Shown one piece after another: positions 4,732 through 52,072 of a stretch of 64,000 bases of DNA. Position numbers and translations under genes: made by a program. Positions within the stretch are counted from its first letter, which is position 1. The number at the start of each line of letters is the position of its first letter. Origin of the DNA: Candidatus Sulfotelmatobacter sp. (lineage in GTDB: Bacteria; Acidobacteriota; Terriglobia; Terriglobales; Acidobacteriaceae); the NCBI GenBank assembly GCA_030041215.1, contig JASHOH010000058.1:1-64000 (forward strand). Reading direction: 5' to 3'. The notes under the pieces are model-generated. The model searched no databases. It saw nothing but the letters and a program-made list of their open reading frames with translations, and was not told where the DNA came from.

Positions 4732-5712
4732 GTGAAAGCCGCCGTCCTCAGAACACCCAAACATCATCTTGAGATCGAAGACCTGCCCAAGCCGCAAGTC
4801 GCCGGCGGCGAAGTTCTGCTCCGCGTCCGCGCCTGCGGAGTCTGCCGCACCGATCTTCACATCGTCGATGGCGAACTGCCGCCGCGCAAGCAACCGCTCA
4901 TACCCGGCCATCAAATCGTCGGCACCATCGAAGACGGCGCCAGGCCAGAACTTCCGCTCGGCAGCCGCGTCGGCGTTTCCTGGATGGGCGGCATCGACGG
5001 CACTTGTCCCTATTGCCGCCGCGGCCTCGAGAACCTCTGCGACTCGCCCACCTTCACCGGATACACCGTCAACGGCGGCTACGCGCAGTATGCCGTCGCG
5101 CGCAGCGACTTCGTCTATCCGCTGCCGCCCGAGCTTGATGACCTTCACGCCGCGCCATTGTTGTGCGCGGGCATCATCGGCTTTCGCAGCCTGCGCGTCG
5201 CCGGAGTCGAGCGCGGCGAGCGCGTCGGCCTGTTCGGCTTCGGCGCGTCGGCGCATCTGGTGATTGCCGTTCTCCATGCCTGGAACTGCGACGTGTATGT
5301 TTCGACGCGCGGCGCTTCGCATCAGGCGCTCGCGCAATCGCTAGGCGCGAAGTGGGTCGGGACCGAAGCTGACAAGCCTCCGGTGGAACTCGATCGCGCG
5401 GTAACGTTCGCTCCCAGCGGAGACGTGGTCATCGCCGCGCTCTCCAGCTTGCGCAAAGGAGGAGTCGTTGCCATCAACGCCATTCATCTCGACCGCATGC
5501 CGCAATTCGATTACGACAAGCTTCTCTGGGGCGAGCGCCAGATTCGCAGCGTCGCCAACATGACGCGCGCCGACGCGCGCGACTTCCTGAAGCTTGCAGC
5601 CGAGATCAACCTGCAACCAAAGGTGACAGTCTTTCCTCTCGAACGCGCCAATGACGCGCTCGCGGCTGTTCGTCACGATGCAATCGACGGCGCAGCAGTC
5701 GTTGTGCCGTGA
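4732..5712 (+). CDS. Zinc-dependent alcohol dehydrogenase family protein (CAD2/AdhA-like MDR)
   Basis: 326 residues, medium-chain dehydrogenase/reductase. GTG start with AAGAGG eight bases upstream. Expected activity is NAD(P)-linked oxidation of an alcohol or reduction of an aldehyde. Catalytic zinc ligands are visible as Cys38 (ACGVCRTD), His60 (PGHQ) and Cys145 (LLCAG). The Rossmann segment is GLFGFGASAH. The WGERQIRSVANMTR and GGYAQY motifs match the cinnamyl-alcohol-dehydrogenase-like bacterial subgroup. In the structural-zinc loop only three of four cysteines remain (Cys92, Cys95, Cys103); the first is Asp89 here. The natural substrate cannot be told from sequence. The 3' side opens into the repeat-rich region. 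Confidence 0.88.
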   Translation: MKAAVLRTPKHHLEIEDLPKPQVAGGEVLLRVRACGVCRTDLHIVDGELPPRKQPLIPGHQIVGTIEDGARPELPLGSRVGVSWMGGIDGTCPYCRRGLENLCDSPTFTGYTVNGGYAQYAVARSDFVYPLPPELDDLHAAPLLCAGIIGFRSLRVAGVERGERVGLFGFGASAHLVIAVLHAWNCDVYVSTRGASHQALAQSLGAKWVGTEADKPPVELDRAVTFAPSGDVVIAALSSLRKGGVVAINAIHLDRMPQFDYDKLLWGERQIRSVANMTRADARDFLKLAAEINLQPKVTVFPLERANDALAAVRHDAIDGAAVVVP

Positions 5713-5752
5713 ACGAAACTCGCGCGGTCGATTCCTTAACGTGATGTCATTC

Positions 5753-5955
5753 CACTTCTCGCAAAGAAGGCGAGACGTGGGGCACCCCGCAAAGCCGCAT
5801 TTCACGCGGGTTTCAAGCGGGCACAAGGGATGAAGTCGGCGTCGTTGCCGATTGAAGAGAGCAGCAGGTTCCTCACAGACCCTTCGGACCTGTTCGGAAT
5901 GACATCAGGAGTGGAAGGACGCTGAACGCGGCGCTGAAGCGCCGCTCTTCCACGG
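5753..5955. repeat. Dispersed repeat, copy A (about 200 bp)
   Basis: This block recurs with high identity at 6189-6437, in the same orientation. It begins CACTTCTCGCA, contains the shared stretch GATGAAGTCGGCGTCGTTGC, and ends in a palindromic GGCGCTGAAGCGCC hairpin (5930-5943). The 30 bases at 5925-5954 occur again at 50448-50477 with one mismatch. No transposase is encoded inside, so it looks like a non-autonomous composite of smaller palindromes. Confidence 0.85.
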
Positions 5956-5958
5956 CAA

Positions 5959-6011
5959 TTCGCGGGCAGAGCCTGCCCTGAGCGAAGTCGAAGGGAGTGC
6001 CTGCGCCACAC
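5959..6011. repeat. REP palindrome interrupted by a 25-base insert
   Basis: The ends match the REP copy at 6483-6509 (CGCGGGCA ... GGAGTGCC). The palindrome is split by 25 bases (5969-5993) that contain CCTGAGCGAAGTCGAAG. The insert falls at the stem/loop boundary. Confidence 0.75.
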
Positions 6012-6029
6012 TTTCACTGTCCCCTGGCA

Positions 6030-6122
6030 GCGCCAGAAATGCATGGATTCTTGCTTCGCTCAGAATGACAACGTAAACCGCCGGCAGAAATGCATGGATT
6101 CTTCGTTCCGCTCAGAATGACA
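6030..6122. repeat. Two tandem copies of a GCTCAGAATGACA-type repeat
   Basis: AGAAATGCATGGATTCTT is followed by a CGCTCAGAATGACAA-like end twice in a row (near 6034-6071 and 6084-6122). The same family forms the inverted pair at 10691-10776. It appears non-coding. Confidence 0.7.
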
Positions 6123-6188
6123 AGGTAGACTTTGTATGAAAATCGCTCCCCACTAAATCGCGAAATTCAGCCAAAAACAGCCCAAGCC

Positions 6189-6437
6189 CACTTCTCGCAG
6201 AGAAGGCGAGAAGTGGGGCACCCGCGCAAAGCCGCATTTCACGCGGGCTCCAGGCGGCCACAAGGGATGAAGTCGGCGTCGTTGCCGATTGAAGAGAGCA
6301 GCAGGGGTTCCTCACAGGTCCTTCGGACCTGTTCGGAATGACATCAGGAGTGGAAGGACGCTCAACGCGGCGCTAAAAGCTTGCCCTGAGCGAAATGAGC
6401 GAAGCGAATGAGTCGAACGGGCGCCGCTCTTCCACGG
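6189..6437. repeat. Dispersed repeat, copy B, with a 46-base insert in its terminal palindrome
   Basis: Direct copy of 5753-5955. Where copy A has the three-base loop GAA, copy B carries 46 bases (6375-6420) beginning AAAAGCTTGCCCTGAGCGAA. That insert shares the TGCCCTGAGCGAA core with the insert in the REP at 5969-5993. Confidence 0.85.
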
Positions 6438-6482
6438 TGATTCCAGGCTGATCGGCACAATTGGAAGTCGTGCCCTTCCCAG

Positions 6483-6509
6483 TTCGCGGGCAGGAGTGCC
6501 CGCGCCACA
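6483..6509. repeat. REP palindrome (CGCGGGCA-GGAG-TGCCCGCG)
   Basis: An eight-base-pair perfect stem closes a GGAG loop and is followed by CCACA. This is the same element that bounds the RAYT gene at 11369-12042, so it is a likely target or product of that transposase. Confidence 0.85.
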
Positions 6510-6698
6510 TTAGTCCCCGCTGGCGTGGTTCTGGCTGGTCACCAGAATCAGCCGTGGGCGCGAAGTTGGGCGCGGACGCGATGAAGGCGCGAGGGCGAAC
6601 AGGATGGTAGAAATTGCGGCGTAGGCTGCGGCCACGCCGATTCCAACCGAAAGCACTACGGTGACGCAGAGTACCACAGGCATGAGAAGCGAAATCAC
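6510..6698 (-). CDS. Small membrane protein (hypothetical)
   Basis: 62 residues from a GTG at 6698, with AAAGGGTGG about seven bases upstream. Residues 1-36 are one long hydrophobic segment (LLMPVVLCVTVVLSVGIG) followed by a basic, Pro/Arg-rich tail ending NHASGD. The composition is unlike a chance shadow and there is no larger gene on either strand here. Its stop codon abuts the REP at 6483-6509. No function can be assigned; a single-pass inner-membrane peptide is the most that can be said. It could still be a chance ORF. Confidence 0.4.
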   Translation of the reverse strand: MISLLMPVVLCVTVVLSVGIGVAAAYAAISTILFALAPSSRPRPTSRPRLILVTSQNHASGD

Positions 6699-6929
6699 TG
6701 TCCGACCACCCTTTGAAATAAAACTGCCATTTAGATGCCGCCAATCAGGCTTGCTGATGCAGAAACTTCAATTTACCCGCGATCTGCTGCGCCGCTAGTG
6801 ACGACTCAGATGCTCCACAACTCGTAGTAAAATACGGAGTAGAGCTGTGCTCCTCTAATCTCGATGAATTCTGTAAACCTGTCGACATTACGGAAGGGCA
6901 ATCCAGCCTGTTTTTCGATCAATTCCTAA

Positions 6930-9734
6930 ATGGCTATTACCAGCATTACCGTCCGGGGGGCGCGGCAGCACAACCTCAAGAACATCGACGTCGAAATTCC
7001 GCGGAACACGTTTACGGTTGTGACCGGGCTGAGCGGCTCGGGCAAGTCGTCGCTTGCCTTCGACACGATTTATGCCGAAGGCCAGCGTCGCTATGTCGAG
7101 ACTTTATCGACCTATGCTCGCCAGTTTCTGGACCAGATGGAGCGTCCGGATGTCGATGCCATTGATGGACTTAGCCCGTCCATTTCGATCGAGCAGAAGA
7201 CCACCTCGCGCAGTCCGCGCTCGACCGTGGGAACGATCACCGAGATCTACGATTATCTTCGCCTGCTATTCGCTTCGATTGGGGTTCCGCACTGCCCCAA
7301 ATGCGGGCGGCCGATCAGCCGCCAGACAGCGGAGCAGATCGTACAGCGGGTCATGATGCTCACTCCTGAGGATCGTGTAATGGTTCTTGCGCCCATCGTC
7401 CGCGGGCGCAAAGGCGAGTTCAAAAAAGAAATGGAAACGCTGCTCAAGCATGGCTACGAGCGCGCGCGGGTGGATGGCGAGCTGGTGAACCTGGATGACG
7501 ATCTCAATTTGGACAAGCGCAAGAACCACACGATTGAGGTCGTGATCGATCGGCTATTGGTGAAGCCTGGAATTGAGCACCGGCTGGAAATGTCGGTGGG
7601 CTTGGCGATGAAGCTGGCCGGAGGGTTAGTTCAAATCGCCGTGGTGAACGGCGAAGAAACTTTATATTCGGAGAAGCTGGCTTGTCCGGATTGCGGCATC
7701 AACGTGCCGCAGCTCGAGCCGCGCTCGTTTTCGTTCAACAGCATGTACGGGGCGTGCCCTGAGTGCCACGGCCTCGGCAGTCGCTATGACTTCGATCCAG
7801 CAAAGGTAATCACCGACTGGTCAAAGCCGCTGCTCGATGGCGGACTGGGGCCGGGGTCGGGCTCGCAGAGTTTGATTCATGCCCTGCAGGTCACCGCGGC
7901 AGCACACGGGATTGACCTGAATACTCCATTTGAGAAATTTCCCGACAAGATTCAGGACCTGCTGCTAAATGGCGAATCGGGCCGGGGCCGAACAGGGTTT
8001 CGCGGAATATTCGGATTTTTGAAGCAGAACCTGGAGGAATCGACTTCCGAGGGTTATCGCGACTGGCTGATGGACCACATGTCGGCGACCGAGTGTCCGG
8101 CATGCCAGGGAAAAAGACTGCGGCCGGAAAGCCTGGCGGTGAAAGTGAACGGAATGTCGATCGCCGACTTCGCGGCGCTGCCAATTTCGCGGGCTTTGGA
8201 AGTGGCGCGTGGAATCAAGCTGACCGGTCGCGAAGAGCAGATCGCCGGGCGCGTGATGCACGAGATTATCGAGCGCCTGCAATTTCTGAATGCGGTGGGG
8301 CTGAACTACATTTCTTTGGATCGTTCCGCAGCGACGTTGTCCGGCGGTGAAGGACAGAGAATTCGGCTGGCCACGCAGATTGGCTCGAAGTTGCGCGGCG
8401 TGCTCTATGTGCTGGATGAGCCTTCCATTGGGCTGCATCATCGCGACAATGCTCGTTTATTAAATGCGCTCGAAAATCTTCGCGATCTCGGTAACACGGT
8501 GTTGGTAGTCGAACATGATGAAGAGACAATTCGCCGTGCTGACTACGTGATCGACTTAGGTCCGGGTGCAGGCCGCCATGGAGGAGCGCTAGTGGCGCAT
8601 GGAACTCCAGCCGAAATCATGCGCGAGCCGAATTCGCTCACGGGCGCATACATCTCCGGCCGTACGCAAATTCAAATGCGCGAAGCACGGCGGCAGCCAA
8701 ATGGCGCGGCACTCACGATTCTCGGAGCGAAGGAAAATAATCTCAAGAACCTCGATGTGACGATTCCTCTAGGCGTCATAACAGTCGTCACCGGTGTCTC
8801 GGGCTCCGGCAAGTCAACATTAGTTAACGATATCTTGTACCGTGCCTTGGCGCGTCAGCTTTACCGTTCGCGCGAAAAAGCGGGCGAGCACAAAGCGATC
8901 GTCGGCGCGGAGAACATTGATAAAGTCATCCGCATTGATCAATCGCCGATCGGCCGCACGCCACGCTCGAATCCCGCGACCTATACGGGCGTCTTCACCC
9001 CGATTCGCGACCTGTACGCCATGCTGCCCGAGTCGCGCGAGCGCGGCTACAAAGCCGGACGATTTTCATTCAATGTCGCTGGCGGACGCTGCGAAGCCTG
9101 CCAGGGCGAAGGGCAGCGCCGCATCGAAATGAATTTTCTGCCCGATGTCTACGTGCTCTGCGAAGTCTGCCGCGGCCGCCGCTACAACAGCGAGACTCTT
9201 GCCGTGAAATATAACGGATACTCCATCGCCGACCTGCTCGAGATGCCGGTTTCCGACGCGCTGCCGATTCTGGAAAACATTCCTCAGGTGAGGCAGAAGC
9301 TGCAAACGCTGGTCGATGTCGGACTGGGCTACATTCATTTAGGCCAGTCAGCAGTGACTTTGTCCGGCGGCGAGGCGCAACGCATCAAGCTGGCGCGCGA
9401 ACTGAGCAAGCGCCAGACGGGCAAAACTCTTTACTTGCTCGACGAGCCGACCACGGGGCTGCACTTCGACGACGTGAAAAAGCTGCTCGACGTGCTGCAC
9501 CGTTTGACCGACCTGGGCAATTCAATCATCATCATCGAACATAATATGGATGTGATTCGCAACGCCGACTGGATCATCGACCTCGGCCCCGAAGGCGGCG
9601 AAGAGGGCGGCCGCATCGTCGCCCATGGCGCGCCCGAGCAGGTGGCGAAGGTGAAGAAGTCGTATACGGGGCAGGCGCTGGCGGCGTATTTTGGAAAGTC
9701 AGTTGCCTGTTCTCAGTTGCCAGTTGTGAGTTAA
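6930..9734 (+). CDS. uvrA: Excinuclease ABC subunit A
   Basis: 934 residues, close to the usual 940. UvrA is the DNA-damage sensor ATPase of nucleotide excision repair; it forms a dimer, loads UvrB and leaves. Both ABC modules are complete: Walker A GLSGSGKS at residues 33-40 and GVSGSGKST in the second half, each with its own LSGGE signature and a DEP Walker B. The CPDCG/CPECHG and [15 protein letters not shown] zinc modules are intact, as is the early CPKCG pair. The ATG at 6930 fits the conserved N-terminus, although no strong ribosome site precedes it. The last 11 residues ([11 protein letters not shown]) are unlike UvrA and come from a CAGTTGCC-type repeat at 9700-9730. The gene stands alone; uvrB/uvrC are not in the window, but mfd is (37.3-40.9 kb). 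Confidence 0.97.
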
Positions 9735-9840
9735 TTGAAACATGCTGCATCGGACGAATCCACGCATTGTTTTCTGAAAGGACGTACTTCTGTCAGTCCC
9801 CGAAAATCCGCTGACCGATCCGGAAATTGATCCGCAGGCT

Positions 9841-10701
9841 GTGAGCGGCGAACCACAGGCTCCGCCTGCCCAGCCGTATGCGTTTCCGCCAACGGAGATC
9901 CAGCCACCTCCGCCTCCAGTAGAGTTCCGGCCCGCACCTCCTCCGCCCAAAGCCGACGAGAATCCCGTCTTCAATGGCTGGGACGTGCTCAAAGTCGCCG
10001 CGTTGACCGCAGCGCTGGCGCTGTTTGTCGTGCCAATGATTACCGTGACCTTCGCAAAGATATTCGTCTTCCCACGCCAGTCCTGGCTCGAGGTCGCGCA
10101 GAAACCTGCCTTGGCGCTGGTGTCACAGTTCATCGCCTATCTCATCGTGGCGCTGTTCATGGTCCTGCTTATTCGCGGAAGATACCGCATGCCCTTCGGG
10201 GAAGCGATTCGCTGGCGCTGGCCGGGTCGCGCCGGACTGAATTTCATCGGCATTGGCGTGCTCATGCTCAGCTTCGACTTTCTCGCGAAGTTTTTGCCGA
10301 TGCCCAAGAACACCCCATTCGATCAGTTTTTCGATAAGCCGCTGGATGCTTATCTCACCGCTGTTTTTGCCGTGACTCTCGGACCGCTGATGGAAGAGCT
10401 TTTTTTTCGCGGAATGCTCTATCCTGTGCTGGCGCGGCGGATCGGCGCACCCGGCGGAGTGCTGATTACAGCGTTCTTGTTTGCCCTGATGCACTTCGTG
10501 CAGTACGGGCGATCGTGGGGCGCGGTGCTGATTATTTTCCTGGTGGGAATTGTTCTCACTACGATTCGGGCCGTGACGAAGTCGGTAGCGTCAAGTTTTC
10601 TTGCCCATGTAGGCTACAACGCAACGTTGATGGTGCTCGCGGCCTCGGCTACAGATGGATTCAAGCACATGGAGAAAGCGGGAGTGTTTTTGTCATCCTG
10701 A
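9841..10701 (+). CDS. CPBP-family intramembrane metalloprotease (Abi/CAAX-type)
   Basis: 286 residues from GTG 9841. A Pro-rich cytoplasmic N-terminus (about 40 residues) precedes six or so hydrophobic segments. The family's three motifs are present: EELFFRG (Glu185, Glu186, Arg190), FALMH (His218) and HVGYN (His256, Asn260). Known relatives include eukaryotic Rce1 prenyl-protein proteases and bacterial bacteriocin-immunity proteins; the substrate here is unknown. The start is doubtful: the frame is open back to a stop at 9775, and a CTG at 9790 has GAAAGGA eight bases upstream, which would add 17 sensible residues (SVPENPLTDPEID). The final codons and the stop (TTGTCATCCTGA) lie inside the repeat at 10691-10776, so the native C-terminus may have been replaced. 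Confidence 0.88.
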   Translation: MSGEPQAPPAQPYAFPPTEIQPPPPPVEFRPAPPPPKADENPVFNGWDVLKVAALTAALALFVVPMITVTFAKIFVFPRQSWLEVAQKPALALVSQFIAYLIVALFMVLLIRGRYRMPFGEAIRWRWPGRAGLNFIGIGVLMLSFDFLAKFLPMPKNTPFDQFFDKPLDAYLTAVFAVTLGPLMEELFFRGMLYPVLARRIGAPGGVLITAFLFALMHFVQYGRSWGAVLIIFLVGIVLTTIRAVTKSVASSFLAHVGYNATLMVLAASATDGFKHMEKAGVFLSS

Positions 10702-10776
10702 GCAAAGCGAAGGATCCATGCAGTTCTGCTTGCACCGGAAAAACTGCATAGATGCTTCGCTTCGCTCAGCATGACA
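10691..10776. repeat. Long imperfect inverted repeat (35-base arms)
   Basis: Arms at 10691-10725 and 10742-10776 are reverse complements with four mismatches, separated by 16 bases. The arms carry the GCTCAGNATGACA end seen at 6030-6122. The element supplies the stop codon of the CPBP gene. It could act as a strong transcript-end hairpin but has no T run. Confidence 0.8.
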
Positions 10777-10783
10777 AAACTAC

Positions 10784-10809
10784 CGCGGACAGGAGTGCCC
10801 GCGCCACAC
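10784..10809. repeat. REP copy downstream of the DinB gene
   Basis: CGCGGACAGGAGTGCCCGCG plus CCACAC; one stem mismatch relative to the copy at 6483. It lies 15 bases beyond the DinB stop codon. Confidence 0.8.
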
Positions 10810-10823
10810 GACCAAATCTTACC

Positions 10824-11354
10824 TTACCAGGTATCGCCCCCACGCCGTGGCGGCCAGGCGCCGAGCGCGCGGCGGATGAGCGCAATCTGTCCGGAGTGGT
10901 AGCTGTTGTGCGCAACCATCTGCCAGAGTACTGATTCGAGCGTGCCAGCTACCTGCCGATCGCCTGCGTGGATGCTTTCGAGCTGGCGATCAAGTTCGTG
11001 ACGTGGAGATTGTCCTAGTTCTATCAACTCAGCGAGAAGAACCGCAAACTGCTGCTGCAGGTGTTTCCATTCCTTAGGATCGACCGCCTCGGCTGGGAAG
11101 CTCTCCGAATTGTGCTGGGGATGTTGCGGGCTTTGGCCGCGAATACGGCGCAATTCGTAGTCCATCCAGTAATTCATGTGAAAGACGAGTTGCGCTATGG
11201 AGTGGGGAAATCCCGCCACTCGGTAGTTCGCCAACTCTGGTGAAAGATCTTCGACGCAGGCCACTGGATCAGCGTGGGAGCCCTTACCGTGCAGCAGTTC
11301 GGTCAGTGCCCGCATGGACATGAGAGTTCCCAATCGACTGTGGCGCTTGCGCAT
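10824..11354 (-). CDS. DinB-family protein (four-helix bundle, putative metal-dependent enzyme)
   Basis: About 176 residues. DinB/YfiT proteins are four-helix bundles that commonly bind a metal through three histidines; some are thiol transferases using bacillithiol or mycothiol, many are uncharacterised. Here the His-bearing segments VFHMNYWMDYEL and WQMVAHNSYHSGQIALIRR are visible and fit the pattern. The start is ambiguous: ATG 11354 has GAGG four bases upstream, while ATG 11321 begins the MSMRALTELLHGKG segment that looks like the conserved N-terminus. The longer frame to 11441 runs into the REP at 11369-11402 and should not be used. The gene lies between a REP copy and the RAYT element. 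Confidence 0.82.
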   Translation of the reverse strand: MRKRHSRLGTLMSMRALTELLHGKGSHADPVACVEDLSPELANYRVAGFPHSIAQLVFHMNYWMDYELRRIRGQSPQHPQHNSESFPAEAVDPKEWKHLQQQFAVLLAELIELGQSPRHELDRQLESIHAGDRQVAGTLESVLWQMVAHNSYHSGQIALIRRALGAWPPRRGGDTW

Positions 11355-11368
11355 TGTACCTCGGGCAT

Positions 11369-11402
11369 GTGTGGCGCGGGCACTCCTGCCCGTGAAATGC
11401 CA
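11369..11402. repeat. Left inverted REP of the RAYT unit
   Basis: Begins GTGTGGCGCGGGCACTCCTG and ends AAATGCCA. It forms a hairpin with a CTCC loop and is the inverse of the right-hand copy. Confidence 0.88.
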
Positions 11403-11511
11403 ATGAATAGAATCACAGTTGCTGACACTAAGTATCCCCATTCCCGGGAAAAAGAAAAATCCTCTCCTTTTTGCCAGTTCGCCGATCCTCCGGCGTGCTT
11501 ACCATGTCTCT

Positions 11512-11993
11512 ATGCCCAGCACCCTCTTTCGTCGTTACGAATATCACCGCCGCCTGCCCCATTATCAAAAGACGACCGCCCTGTCTTTGTAACCTTCCGA
11601 AGAATACGTGGCTTTTATCTGAGCCCGGCAGCTCGGGGTTTGGTGCTTCAGCATTGTCTGTTCGAATCTGGGAGAAGAATCCAACTCCATGCAGCTGTCG
11701 CGATGCCCGACCACGTTCATCTACTCTTCACCGCTTTGCGTGATGGCGGTGGATGGACATTCGCTCTGCCTGAAATCATGAAGGCGATCAAAGGAACTTC
11801 TGCCCGCAGTATTAATAAGCTTATGGAACGGCATGGTCCGGTATGGCAGGATGAGTCATTTGATCATGTGATACGAGGGAATGAGAGTTTGAAAGAGACG
11901 GTGGAGTACATCCAACAGAACCCGGTGAGAAGGGGCCTGGTTGCAGCTCCGGAGGATTATGAGTGGCTGTGGATTGCGGATGATTTCAGATAG
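11512..11993 (+). pseudogene. REP-associated tyrosine transposase (RAYT, Y1/HUH family), apparently frameshifted
   Basis: RAYTs are HUH single-strand nucleases related to IS200/IS605 TnpA and process REP hairpins. The HUH motif is in AVAMPDHVHLLF, and the likely catalytic Tyr is in TVEYIQQNPVRRGL. Other family blocks are ALPEIMKAIKGTSARSINK and GPVWQDESFDHVIR. The typical N-terminus (MPSTLFRRYEYHRRLPHYQK) starts at ATG 11512, but in a different frame from the rest; the switch occurs at about 11566-11571 in CAAAAG, where one base seems missing. Read in the catalytic-domain frame alone, the ORF is open upstream to 11274, but that extension is spacer and REP sequence, not protein. The gene is either dead, translated by frameshifting, or affected by a base-call error. 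No good ribosome site was seen. Confidence 0.8.
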
Positions 11994-12008
11994 GGCTTGG
12001 TCCTGGGC

Positions 12009-12042
12009 TGGCATTTCGCGGGCAAGAGTGCCCGCGCCACAC
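12009..12042. repeat. Right inverted REP of the RAYT unit
   Basis: TGGCATTTCGCGGGCAAGAG followed by TGCCCGCGCCACAC. It is the inverse of 11369-11402 with two mismatches and ends 16 bases before the next gene's stop codon. Confidence 0.88.
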
Positions 12043-12058
12043 GGTCACTGCCAGTCGA

Positions 12059-13903
12059 TCACTTCACTGTCACAGTCAGCAACTGCGCCCCGCTGACCAC
12101 ATAATCCAGCGGCGGAGTCGATGTCTCATCCACATTTGATTCGCCACTGACCACCATCTCCTGATTCCCGCGCATAGGCTCCATGACATTCATGACGGAA
12201 ATGGGCAGTGTGGGCATGACCTTATCGCCGACGCGGGCTTCAGGATCAGCTTCGAGCAGCGAGACATAAACTCGATTGTTGGAGTGCTCTTTGTTCAAAA
12301 CGGCGATGGTGGACGCCAAATCCAGCTTGTGTCCAAACGCCGCATTCCCGCGGCTGACGCGGTCGAGCGTGTCGCCATCGCTGACCAGAATGCGCAAAGT
12401 TCCTTTGCTTGCAGAAGTCGGAATCTTCACGGGAATGTACTGCACGATGCGCTCGCCGCGATAAGGCGCCAGCGCAGTCTCGACTGTAATCTCATCCCCG
12501 GGACGAGCCTCGGTGACATCCGTGCGCGCGCTTTCCAGGCGTGCCCAGCGGCGCTCGCGCACCAAATCAAAATCGAGCTTCACGCCTTGAATCGCCGGCG
12601 CGTTATAGGGGTTGTCATAAATTCGTCCAAAGCGCTCGCCCAGCGACAACGCAGCCTGCATGGCTGCCGGCTGGCCGCCGTCGGCAGGAGCGAACATGTT
12701 CTTCATCAGTACATCGGGAAATCCCTTCACCCCGATGCTGCCAGCAACTCGATACGTGATCTCCTCGCCAAATTCATTCACGCCGTGCAGCGCGTTGAAG
12801 ACGGTCACCATCAACGCGATTGGCGTCAGCTTGGGATTGTTCAGCACTTCATAGTGGAACTGCTTCACTCCCGCGTCGCTGTGAAGGTTCAGTGTGACCG
12901 GAATCATTTCAGGCTGGCGGTCGAAAACGCCCATGATGCCGGTGTGCCGGTCCTGAACGAAAGCTCCCACCGGCTCGGTTGTGTTTACGATTTTGAAGGC
13001 ATTCAACGGCGAAGGCAGCGTCGCCAAGACTTCAGCCTTGCTCATGGGCAGATCTACCGAACCAAACTGAAGCAGAGGATGCCCACATGCGAGCAGGCGC
13101 TGCGGGTCGATATACGTCACTGTGCAAGTGGCTTCGATGTCCATGTCGCCGCGCACCAGAATCGCACTGATGGCGGAGCCAGGCTCAACCGGCTCGGGCT
13201 GCTTGTCGTTGCTGACGGACCCAGCGCCCATGACCGGCACAATTCCGGCAGAAGCAAATTCTTTGGAGAAAAGATTGATTGCCTGCTCAGAGAATCCATT
13301 GAAGACCAGCGGCGTCTCAATCGGCCGCAGATAGTTCGAATAGCTCTTTCCGTCGGAGTTCTCAAGCGAACCCGCTTCGCCAGGCGCCGCAGTTTTCCCC
13401 GCCACTTCTTTCACGGTCGGCTTGATTGCAGAAGTCTCTTCCGCCGGCGAGCGGTCCAGCGCATTAATTTCCAGCATGTCGGCAATCGGAGTAACACCGG
13501 CAATCGGCTCTTTTGAGAACTCACCGATTCGGAAAGCAATCGCGCCGGCCAGCTTGCCATCGAAATAAACCGGACTGCCGCTCATCCCCGCCACTACGCC
13601 CGTATACTCGACCCTCTGCCCGTGCAGCCGCACCAGAATCACGTCGCCCTTCGGTCCGTTCACATTGTGAAGAACACCCAGGACCTCAACTTCCATGCTC
13701 TCAGGCTTCACGCCCTGAAATACTGTGTAGGCCACACCACGCATGTCGGCGTGGATCTGGTTCACAGGGATTGTCTTCTGCTCCTGATCCGAAAGCGATT
13801 GAGTGGAAAGAGATTGTGCGGGATGCGCCACAGCTTCCTGCGTCAGACACGAAAAAGGTAAAGAAAGGCAGGCAACGAAGACGGCGAGAAGCTGCTTTGT
13901 CAT
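12059..13903 (-). CDS. SpoIVB peptidase S55 domain protein, exported
   Basis: 614 residues from ATG 13903 (TTG 13909 is also in frame). A signal peptide of about 25 residues ends near the SCLTQEAVA segment. The chymotrypsin-like S55 domain is marked by GMSGSPVYFDGKLAGAI, containing the predicted nucleophilic Ser, and by DMRGVAYTVFQG upstream. In Bacillus, SpoIVB (PDZ plus S55) cleaves SpoIVFA to activate sigma-K processing. This protein is longer, with about 450 residues after the domain that include VTYIDPQRLLACGHPLLQFG and a probable beta-rich C-terminal half. In a Gram-negative it would act in the periplasm; substrate unknown. No ribosome site is evident near either start. Neighbours give no functional link. 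Confidence 0.85.
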   Translation of the reverse strand: MTKQLLAVFVACLSLPFSCLTQEAVAHPAQSLSTQSLSDQEQKTIPVNQIHADMRGVAYTVFQGVKPESMEVEVLGVLHNVNGPKGDVILVRLHGQRVEYTGVVAGMSGSPVYFDGKLAGAIAFRIGEFSKEPIAGVTPIADMLEINALDRSPAEETSAIKPTVKEVAGKTAAPGEAGSLENSDGKSYSNYLRPIETPLVFNGFSEQAINLFSKEFASAGIVPVMGAGSVSNDKQPEPVEPGSAISAILVRGDMDIEATCTVTYIDPQRLLACGHPLLQFGSVDLPMSKAEVLATLPSPLNAFKIVNTTEPVGAFVQDRHTGIMGVFDRQPEMIPVTLNLHSDAGVKQFHYEVLNNPKLTPIALMVTVFNALHGVNEFGEEITYRVAGSIGVKGFPDVLMKNMFAPADGGQPAAMQAALSLGERFGRIYDNPYNAPAIQGVKLDFDLVRERRWARLESARTDVTEARPGDEITVETALAPYRGERIVQYIPVKIPTSASKGTLRILVSDGDTLDRVSRGNAAFGHKLDLASTIAVLNKEHSNNRVYVSLLEADPEARVGDKVMPTLPISVMNVMEPMRGNQEMVVSGESNVDETSTPPLDYVVSGAQLLTVTVK

Positions 13904-14094
13904 GTACAACGCCCGGAAGGACTCGACCGGCCCCTCCTTAGCTGGATTAGACTCCGCCAGGTGGAAATTGTTGCCAGGAGGGGGAAAAACTGGGAGCCGG
14001 GCAAAACATCCCCACTGCGAATCACTGCGTCTATACTAGCATAGAGGCATTTACAGCCATAGATTCTTTAGTCTCCGTATATTCAGAGGTTTGT

Positions 14095-50270: not shown

Positions 50271-52072
50271 ATAGCCACGAATTGGGCCCTGGTCGACACG
50301 AGTTAGAGATCTTTGGGAGAAGAATGAAGTGTGATCAACCCTGGAAGAGCGGCCCTTTCAGCGCCGAGTCCGGCGCAAGAAAGAAGAGTCGGGGCTTTAG
50401 CCCCGGTGTTGCTGCTCAAGGGCTGAAGCCCAAAATAAAATCAACGCAACGCGGCGCTGAAGCGTCGCTCTTCCACGCAGCCCTCAAGCTCACGTTCGCC
50501 GTTTCACTGGCCGCCCTGTTCGGCCTTCTTTTTTCAGCTTATGCCGCTGCGCAGGTCACTCCCGACCGCCTCATCGACGCTTCGAAAGAGCCCCAAAACT
50601 GGCTTACCTACTCCGGGGACTACTCCGGACGCCGCTTCTCCTCACTCGATCAAATCAACACCACCAACGCCCGCTCCCTCACCGCCAAATGGGTCTACCA
50701 AACCGCCGCTACAGGCAAGCTCGAAACCACGCCATTGGTCGTCGACGGTGTCCTCTACGCCACCGCTCAGGACGACCGTGCCTTTGCCCTCGACGCCCGC
50801 ACCGGACGCCCCGTCTGGATGTATCAGCGTCAACTCCCGCAAGACATCCGCCCCTGCTGCGGCCACGTGAATCGTGGGCTCGCCATCCTGGACGACAAAG
50901 TTTTTCTTGGCACGCTCGACGCCCACGTGATTGCGCTCGATTCAAAGACCGGCAATGTCATCTGGGACGTCACCGCTGCCGAATATCAGAAAGGTTACAG
51001 CTTCACCGTTGCGCCGCTGGCGGTGAAGAATCTGATCATCATCGGCGTCTCCGGAGGCGAATATGGCGTTCGCGGCTTCATCGACGCTTACGACGCCTTG
51101 ACCGGTGCGCGCAGATGGCGCTTCTACACCGTGCCCGGTCCCGGCGAAGCCGGACACGAAACCTGGGAAGGCGATTCCTGGAAAGTCGGCGGCGCGCCTG
51201 CGTGGAATACAGGAACCTACGATCCCGTCACTAATCAGATTTTCTGGCCCACGGGAAATCCCGCACCCTCAAACCGCGGCGCAGGCCGTGCCGGAGACAA
51301 TCTCTACAGTAACTCTCTGCTTGCCCTCGACGCCGACACTGGCAAGCTGAACTGGTACTTTCAATTCACCAAGCACGACGAGCACGACTGGGACGCCACG
51401 CAAGTTCCCATCATCATCGATTCCGCTGGCAAGCACCTGATCGCGCAAGCCAACCGCAACGGATTCTTCTACTTGCTCGACCGCTCAAGCGGCAAGCTGA
51501 TCTCCGCGACCGCATACGGCAAACAGACCTGGAGCGACAGCAAAGATTCCGAAGGCCGCCCTGTCGCTAAAAAAGAGGCCTCGCCTACTCTCGAAGGCCA
51601 CACTGTCTGCCCCGGAGCGCTGGGAACGACGAATTTCATGGCGCCCACGTTCGATCCGCAGACGAATTTGTTTTATGTCACCTCGCGCGACCAGTGCGAC
51701 ATCTTCTCAACCGCGCCACAGCCCTACGAAGCCGGGCATGCCTATTACGGCAGCGCCTATTTCCCTTCTGATGAAGCCGAACCGTATCGTGGATTTCTCA
51801 AGGCAATCGATCCCTTGACAGGACACATTAAATGGCAGTTCGAGCACACTTCTCCGACATGGTCAGGCGCGCTCTCAACCGCGGGTGGTCTGGTTTTCAC
51901 CGGAGATGCGGAAGGAAACTTCATTGCGCTCGACACAACTACTGGTAAGCCGCTGTGGCATTTCCAGATGGGAGGCGCAGTCTACGCCGCGCCCATGGCC
52001 TTCGCAGTCGATGGCAAAGAATACGTCGCGATCGCCGCCGGCAGCGCCGTGTATGCGTTTGGATTGCCGTAG
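50267..52072 (+). CDS. PQQ-dependent alcohol dehydrogenase (quinoprotein)
   Basis: 601 residues. Eight-bladed propeller with PQQ and Ca. The PQQ-stacking vicinal disulfide is Cys197-Cys198 (IRPCCGHVNRG); the Asp base and substrate region include PTGNPAPSNRG and GDNLYSNSLLALD. Tryptophan-docking blades (GKLNWYFQFTKHDEHDWDA) are complete. It would oxidise periplasmic alcohols and hand electrons to the overlapping cytochrome. The start is ATG 50267 (ATGA overlap); an ATG at 50324 with GGGAG upstream is an alternative. The first ~90 residues are odd: the real signal peptide (LKLTFAVSLAALFGLLFSAY) begins only near residue 73, and the preceding segment comes from a repeat at 50343-50477. Whether export still works is unclear. 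Confidence 0.92.
   Translation: MNSHELGPGRHELEIFGRRMKCDQPWKSGPFSAESGARKKSRGFSPGVAAQGLKPKIKSTQRGAEASLFHAALKLTFAVSLAALFGLLFSAYAAAQVTPDRLIDASKEPQNWLTYSGDYSGRRFSSLDQINTTNARSLTAKWVYQTAATGKLETTPLVVDGVLYATAQDDRAFALDARTGRPVWMYQRQLPQDIRPCCGHVNRGLAILDDKVFLGTLDAHVIALDSKTGNVIWDVTAAEYQKGYSFTVAPLAVKNLIIIGVSGGEYGVRGFIDAYDALTGARRWRFYTVPGPGEAGHETWEGDSWKVGGAPAWNTGTYDPVTNQIFWPTGNPAPSNRGAGRAGDNLYSNSLLALDADTGKLNWYFQFTKHDEHDWDATQVPIIIDSAGKHLIAQANRNGFFYLLDRSSGKLISATAYGKQTWSDSKDSEGRPVAKKEASPTLEGHTVCPGALGTTNFMAPTFDPQTNLFYVTSRDQCDIFSTAPQPYEAGHAYYGSAYFPSDEAEPYRGFLKAIDPLTGHIKWQFEHTSPTWSGALSTAGGLVFTGDAEGNFIALDTTTGKPLWHFQMGGAVYAAPMAFAVDGKEYVAIAAGSAVYAFGLP
50343..50477. repeat. Composite palindromic repeat inside the PQQ dehydrogenase gene
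   Basis: 135 bases (45 codons). The right end (50448-50477) equals 5925-5954 with one mismatch. The left end (50343-50366) resembles its inverse. In between are GGGGCTTTAGCCCC and GGGCTGAAGCCC hairpins. It is in frame, between the start codon and the signal-peptide core. Confidence 0.85.

Follow-up and report, generated by a model that had tools for sequence, protein, structure and literature searches.

The closest described systems to the element considered here are REPtrons, in which a RAYT (TnpA-REP) gene is accompanied by the REP hairpins cognate to it. The biochemistry of TnpA-REP has been described for the E. coli and Marinomonas proteins (PMC6006769; PMC8266576). In E. coli, residues W94, Q95, H101 and R104 read the GTAG foot of the hairpin, and Asp at the position of E100 has been published for subclasses 2.5 and 2.7 (PMC6006769). 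RAYT subclasses outside the γ-Proteobacteria have already been published, and members of subclass 2.7 have long canonical REPs, with GT[AG]G feet, on their flanks (Quentin et al., 2018; PMC6006769). REP singlets have been read as defunct remnants of REPINs, which are inverted pairs of REPs (Bertels and Rainey; PMC3116915). In Acidobacteria, Di Nocera et al. (2013; PMC3733652) reported Y1 genes of another kind, the TIRYTs; the GTAG-type REPs of that survey came from Proteobacteria, Cyanobacteria, Chloroflexi and the PVC group, with Acidobacteriota not among them.

We analysed a 64,000-nucleotide stretch of DNA (the window) from a soil bacterium of the acidobacterial genus Candidatus Sulfotelmatobacter. 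An earlier, sequence-only reading had placed a RAYT-like gene between 34-base inverse REPs, and both an inverted-repeat search and folding agreed with it. The best inverted repeat in the 64-kb window pairs positions 11369–11402 with 12009–12042 over 34 nt, with 94% complementarity (32 of 34 positions). Only about 4e-7 such pairs are expected per 64 kb under a simple composition model, and chance is no serious explanation for the inverted ends. As single strands the two arms fold with −9.9 and −11.6 kcal/mol (z = −3.3 and −3.7). Each arm consists of GTGTGG, a hairpin and a short tail, and the canonical layout comprises a GTGG foot, an 8-bp stem CGCGGGCA/TGCCCGCG and a CTCY loop. The left end (11369–11402, forward strand) reads CGCGGGCA-CTCC-TGCCCG after its GTGTGG foot and ends in the tail TGAAATGCCA, and the right end (12009–12042, reverse strand) has the same foot, the stem CGCGGGCA/TGCCCGCG, a CTCT loop and the tail AAATGCCA. 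The hairpin predicted in each end is present in both, but the full, perfect 8-bp stem belongs to the right end; one altered stem base on the left (TGCCCGTG) leaves 6 bp of perfect pairing. A GT[AG]G foot set directly at the hairpin, in REPs that flank the gene, is the arrangement expected of a REPtron and is found here.

The gene between these ends is a RAYT/TnpA-REP pseudogene on the forward strand (11512–11993). Its N-terminal part, MPSTLFRRYEYHRRLPHYQK, begins at 11512 and lies in another frame than the remainder (11580–11993), from which it is separated by a −1 frameshift near 11575; the break was implied earlier by talk of a ‘frame-restored’ protein. Alignment with relatives places a single-base gap at that point, within an A-rich run. 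The longest open frame (11274–11993) scores 86.8 bits against the NCBIfam model REP_Tyr_transpos (NF047646; cut-off 80), and the gene scores 34.7 bits against Pfam Y1_Tnp (PF01797). The closest structure in the PDB is 4er8, the E. coli TnpA-REP protein (E = 4e-6), relative to which W94, Q95, H101, R104 and the catalytic tyrosine are conserved and E100 is replaced by Asp. The HUH motif (DHVH), WQDESFDHVIR (of the form WQ...DH..R) and YIQQNP are all intact. A RAYT-type Y1 HUH transposase gene is thus identified by NF047646, PF01797 and 4er8, and the genome holds one copy of it, at a site that is constant in the genus, so that there is one gene per REP family without multiplication of the gene, as in a REPtron.

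Inverted ends around a Y1 transposase gene, together with dispersed, gene-less copies of those ends that resemble MITEs, would also be expected of an IS200/IS605-like insertion sequence of the usual kind, or of a MITE derived from one, mobile as a whole with its terminal inverted repeats. We consider this highly improbable. Such an element should occur as multiple near-identical full copies with an IS200 transposase, yet the gene is single, occupies one orthologous site in seven genus genomes and scores 22.8 bits against the IS200 transposase equivalog, far under the cut-off of 55. Its tyrosine motif has the form Y...NP rather than Y...Q, and no tnpB was recognized among the neighbouring ORFs, without a profile search. 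The best explanation of the locus, to which we assign a probability of about 90%, is a REPtron consisting of a domesticated Y1 (HUH) RAYT/TnpA-REP gene between inverted REPs of its own cognate family, with the REPs of this genome likely to be a fossil population. The features on which this explanation draws are observed ones: the RAYT family and its motifs, GTRG-footed hairpins, stem covariation, co-diversification, dispersed copies, the states of the chromosomal site and decay of the gene.

A cognate REP family should be present in many copies. By pattern search, the 24-base core GTGTGGCGCGGGCACTCCTGCCCG was found at 37 places with at most three mismatches in the 5.03-Mb genome (a 251-contig draft), where the reversed pattern gave 0 and composition predicts about 0.08. 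The ends are therefore members of a spread family, as had been proposed, and not a local duplication. The three copies noted near the gene are all real. Those at 10786–10809, between a CAAX-protease-like gene and a DinB-like gene, and at 6487–6510, which is intergenic, each differ from the core by one mismatch, and the third (5959–6011) is interrupted, as read from the sequence, by a 26-base repeat, AGCCTGCCCTGAGCGAAGTCGAAGG, inside its loop; all three are on the reverse strand. The dispersed copies share just the 24–26-base core and lack both conserved tails, so that we can only infer their origin from this particular RAYT. In the REPs at RAYT loci, the L tail contains a CCA that lies at a constant offset and is complementary to the foot; since the dispersed copies do not conserve it, it is no more than a guess at the cleavage site.

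Several other repeats were noted. The core of AGCCTGCCCTGAGCGAAGTCGAAGG has 43 copies in the genome at up to three mismatches (control 0); the repeat interrupts the loops of two distinct REP hairpins in the window (5959–6011 and 6375–6436) and in an inverted end of a Y1 gene relic (L006), and it may target hairpin loops preferentially. A second REP-like family is represented at 5925–5954 and 50448–50477 by CGTGGAAGA followed by the hairpin GCGGCGC-TTCA-GCGCCGC, the two being 97% identical. Two intergenic blocks (5752–5938 and 6188–6377), duplicated about 437 bp apart and 94% alike, contain several small repeats, among them a CCACTTCTCGC...GGGGCACCC stretch similar to the inverted ends of two other RAYT genes (L002 and L003). 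Positions 10692–10780 carry an inverted pair, GTCATCCTGAGC..AGCGAAGGATC / GATGCTTCGCTTCGCTCAGCATGAC, that recalls the superfamily of CGTC/TGTC-tagged REPs.

The REP family is specific to the genus. Of 37 genus genomes 33 contained it, and of 24 from the order or class outside the genus none did; the relatives that bear names are Candidatus Sulfotelmatobacter and ‘Acidobacteriaceae bacterium SbA1’. Among 396 genomes spread evenly over the phylum, REPs with at most one mismatch were found in two, both members of the genus and one of them the genome studied here; same-family genomes of other genera in that sample had none at this threshold. Some genus genomes retain the REP and have no related RAYT match (for example G006, G007, G030 and G033). 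The description of the locus as a clean, lineage-specific candidate thus stands as regards lineage; as an active system it is not clean, the gene being frameshifted and the REPs unpaired. Nor is such a system unusual outside the γ-Proteobacteria, where it is best known, as GT[AG]G-flanked relatives of this RAYT are common in Acidobacteriota, Planctomycetota and candidate phyla.

To relate REPs to their genes, we labelled a tree of 41 RAYTs from the genus and order by the stem type of the surrounding GT[AG]G-footed hairpins. The 10 labels required 10 changes on the tree, where the minimum is 9 and shuffled labels averaged 28.4. The clade of the window RAYT (G000, which is this genome, with G010, G034, G015, G001 and G002) has support of 98/98, and all of its members carry the stem CGCGGGCA; GACCGGGTC and GGACAGCCG are non-cognate types relative to it. 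Judged from these sequences, hairpin type tracks RAYT phylogeny almost perfectly. Because the hairpin detector itself demands pairing, stem covariation was measured on REPs collected purely by similarity: 88.9% of stem cells were paired, against 76.0% (maximum 77.9%) when the 3′ arms were dealt anew, and double stem changes numbered 166, against a mean of 45.5 and a maximum of 61 for the re-dealt arms. With any base allowed at the third position of the foot, G was found 157 times, A 91, C 3 and T 1, a purine in 248 of 252 hairpins. No protein column clearly predicted a GTGG or a GTAG foot, despite 16 switches on the tree. Across 75 relatives from named genomes of several phyla, 57 had GT[AG]G hairpins on both sides, compared with 0 of 750 shuffled flanks. 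Eight RAYTs that are 47–60% identical to that of the window (L092, L100, L123, L129, L131, L132, L138 and L146) come from MAGs of Planctomycetota, candidate division WOR-3 and Syntrophales, and their GT[AG]G hairpins belong to the ..CAGCCG / ACAGCCT type. This scattered distribution suggests either horizontal transfer or contaminated bins. One acidobacterial genus contains about eight REP types, each with its own RAYT clade, and these form a natural series for asking which protein residues read which hairpin.

These data also bear on the idea that the 24-base hairpins act in transcription termination or RNA stability, and that the RAYT merely happens to lie between two of them. The hairpins are GC-rich, the copies in the window lie between genes and, by a crude ORF test, 15 of 33 copies fall inside ORFs of at least 200 aa compared with 69% of random positions. 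A terminator, however, would have no need of a conserved, unpaired GTRG foot, nor would its type be expected to follow the RAYT clade or its hairpins to flank the gene on either side in the majority of relatives, across several phyla; moreover, no T tract follows the hairpins, and an Rfam search of positions 5700–12200 returned no match. We regard this explanation as very unlikely, even if the hairpins may have a secondary role in RNA, and retain the REPtron.

If the window RAYT were intact, it would, by analogy with the E. coli and Marinomonas proteins, bind the REP hairpin as single-stranded DNA and use the GTGG foot to guide cutting and rejoining of the strand next to it. For a GTGG foot, the published guide rule (PMC8266576) would place the cuts at CC or CA. 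The REPs would then spread as inverted pairs (REPINs) and the gene would stay put. Cleavage and mobilization are inferred from these characterized homologues. Among intact relatives, the gene pair of G001 and G002 has dN 0.10 and dS 1.15, which indicates purifying selection (dS is saturated in most other pairs).

The REPs of this genome do not have the pairing expected of a REPIN population. None of the 37 is matched by a convincing inverted copy within 300 bp, so that of the two properties proposed for a whole-genome check, many copies and clustering in pairs, the first was found and the second was not. A small number of copies stand instead in direct tandem, and one forms a ‘double foot’ palindrome. 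The latter (L016, G000:C107:6383; GTGTGGCGCGGGCACTCCTGCCCCCGCCACAC) has the form expected from a deletion within an inverted REP pair. In G001, which has an intact RAYT, 14 of 58 copies form seven inverted pairs 50–140 bp apart, and the difference from 0 of 37 is significant by Fisher's test (p = 0.0007; with the RAYT locus left out, 0.003); pairs are scarce in the other unit-bearing genomes G015, G034 and G002 too, in a comparison that spans few genomes. This is suggestive of a link between pair loss and a broken RAYT, although it is not proof. Since the sole copy of the gene is frameshifted and the REPs are solitary, the family in this genome is most likely a fossil population.

An alternative accepts the REPtron but takes the gene to be intact in the living organism, the frameshift to be an assembly or sequencing error and the system to be active. 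The break is a single-base gap in an A-rich run of a draft assembly, the adjoining frames are open and the HUH and tyrosine motifs are preserved. Damage affects three of the six orthologues placed in the RAYT tree, however: besides the frameshift in this genome, the first His of HUH is missing from the closest orthologue (G010), and that of G015 has both a frameshift and a TAG codon, so that decay is common in this RAYT. An active system also fits poorly with the loss of all inverted pairs from this genome. We consider an error unlikely, and favour a decayed REPtron.

The chromosomal site gives a further view of this decay. The unit lies downstream of a peptidase-like gene (12059–13909, reverse strand) that is present in 42 of 45 genus genomes, between this gene and a CAAX-protease-like gene (9841–10701, forward strand). 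At this one orthologous site, five genomes (G001, G002, G015, G034 and G456) have a forward REP, a forward RAYT and a second forward REP, mostly followed by a reverse REP, reading away from the peptidase gene; in G000 and G010 the RAYT is reversed. The site is occupied in G018 by just a REP pair, whose inner tails are those of the 3′ pair of the full unit, in G027 by a solo REP, and in G003, G454 and G026 by 19–37 bases with no REP. The DinB-like gene of the window (10824–11354), which lies between the REPs at 10786–10809 and 11369, was not found at the site in the sister loci examined.

These states are likely to have arisen by recombination between the REPs of the unit itself. Recombination between direct REPs would remove the gene, with a REP pair remaining in its place, and recombination between inverted REPs would flip the gene. 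The flipped units of G000 and G010 appear to be products of the second process, and the REP pair and solo REP are probably products of deletion. A single, simple inversion was rejected as the origin of the window arrangement: both ends in the window carry the R tail and G010 carries the L tail on the peptidase side, which implies more than one event. The fuller proposal, that repeated recombination at the REPs of REPtron ends inverts or deletes the RAYT and so generates the full and flipped units, the REP pair, the solo REP and perhaps the empty site, we advance tentatively, at slightly less than even odds. Phylogeny of the peptidase gene did not separate ancestral empty sites from secondary losses. 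If the proposal is true, the recombining ends offer a direct view of how a REPtron dies and leaves REPINs and REPs behind. A single site in several states, with REPs that outlive the gene, makes the persistence and decay of REPs testable by comparison.

Set beside the E. coli REPtron (RayT, 4ER8), the unit has a nuclease of the same HUH/Y1 single-strand family, with aligned W94, Q95, H101, R104 and catalytic Tyr, a single gene with cognate REPs on its flanks, and REPs built of a foot plus a hairpin. It differs in a GTGG rather than GTAG foot, a perfect 8-bp stem with a 4-nt loop and no bulge, the Asp for E100, and the broken gene. The REPINs of Pseudomonas fluorescens (PMC3116915) are matched at the RAYT loci of sister genomes by inverted REP pairs of about 150 bp, unlike the REPs of this genome, all 37 of which are unpaired. 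The window RAYT shares key motifs of TnpAY1 subclass 2.7 (PMC6006769), in a placement made by motifs only: [ND]HVH, WQ, Asp for E100 and long REPs with GT[AG]G feet agree, and the YIRQNP of relatives fits YI[LR][NQ]NP, whereas YIQQNP in the window is one position off and the published table for this subclass has few phyla besides Cyanobacteria. With the TIRYT/TIRtrons of Acidobacteria (PMC3733652) the unit has in common a Y1 gene between inverted ends in an acidobacterium, and ends that may be repeated in the genome. Its ends are nevertheless GTGG-tagged REP hairpins rather than TIRs with GGGGWSAS, and a TIRYT identity was rejected on these grounds. Five other Y1 genes in this genome have ends unlike those of the window unit; L002 and L003 share a long inverted end, GGGTGCCCCATTTCTCGCGC, L004 is accompanied by GGGTGGCGCAGCGC hairpins, and L001–L003, with long non-REP inverted ends, look more TIRYT-like. 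Compared with these systems, the window contains a new, decaying REP/RAYT unit in a phylum where GTAG-type REPs are little described.
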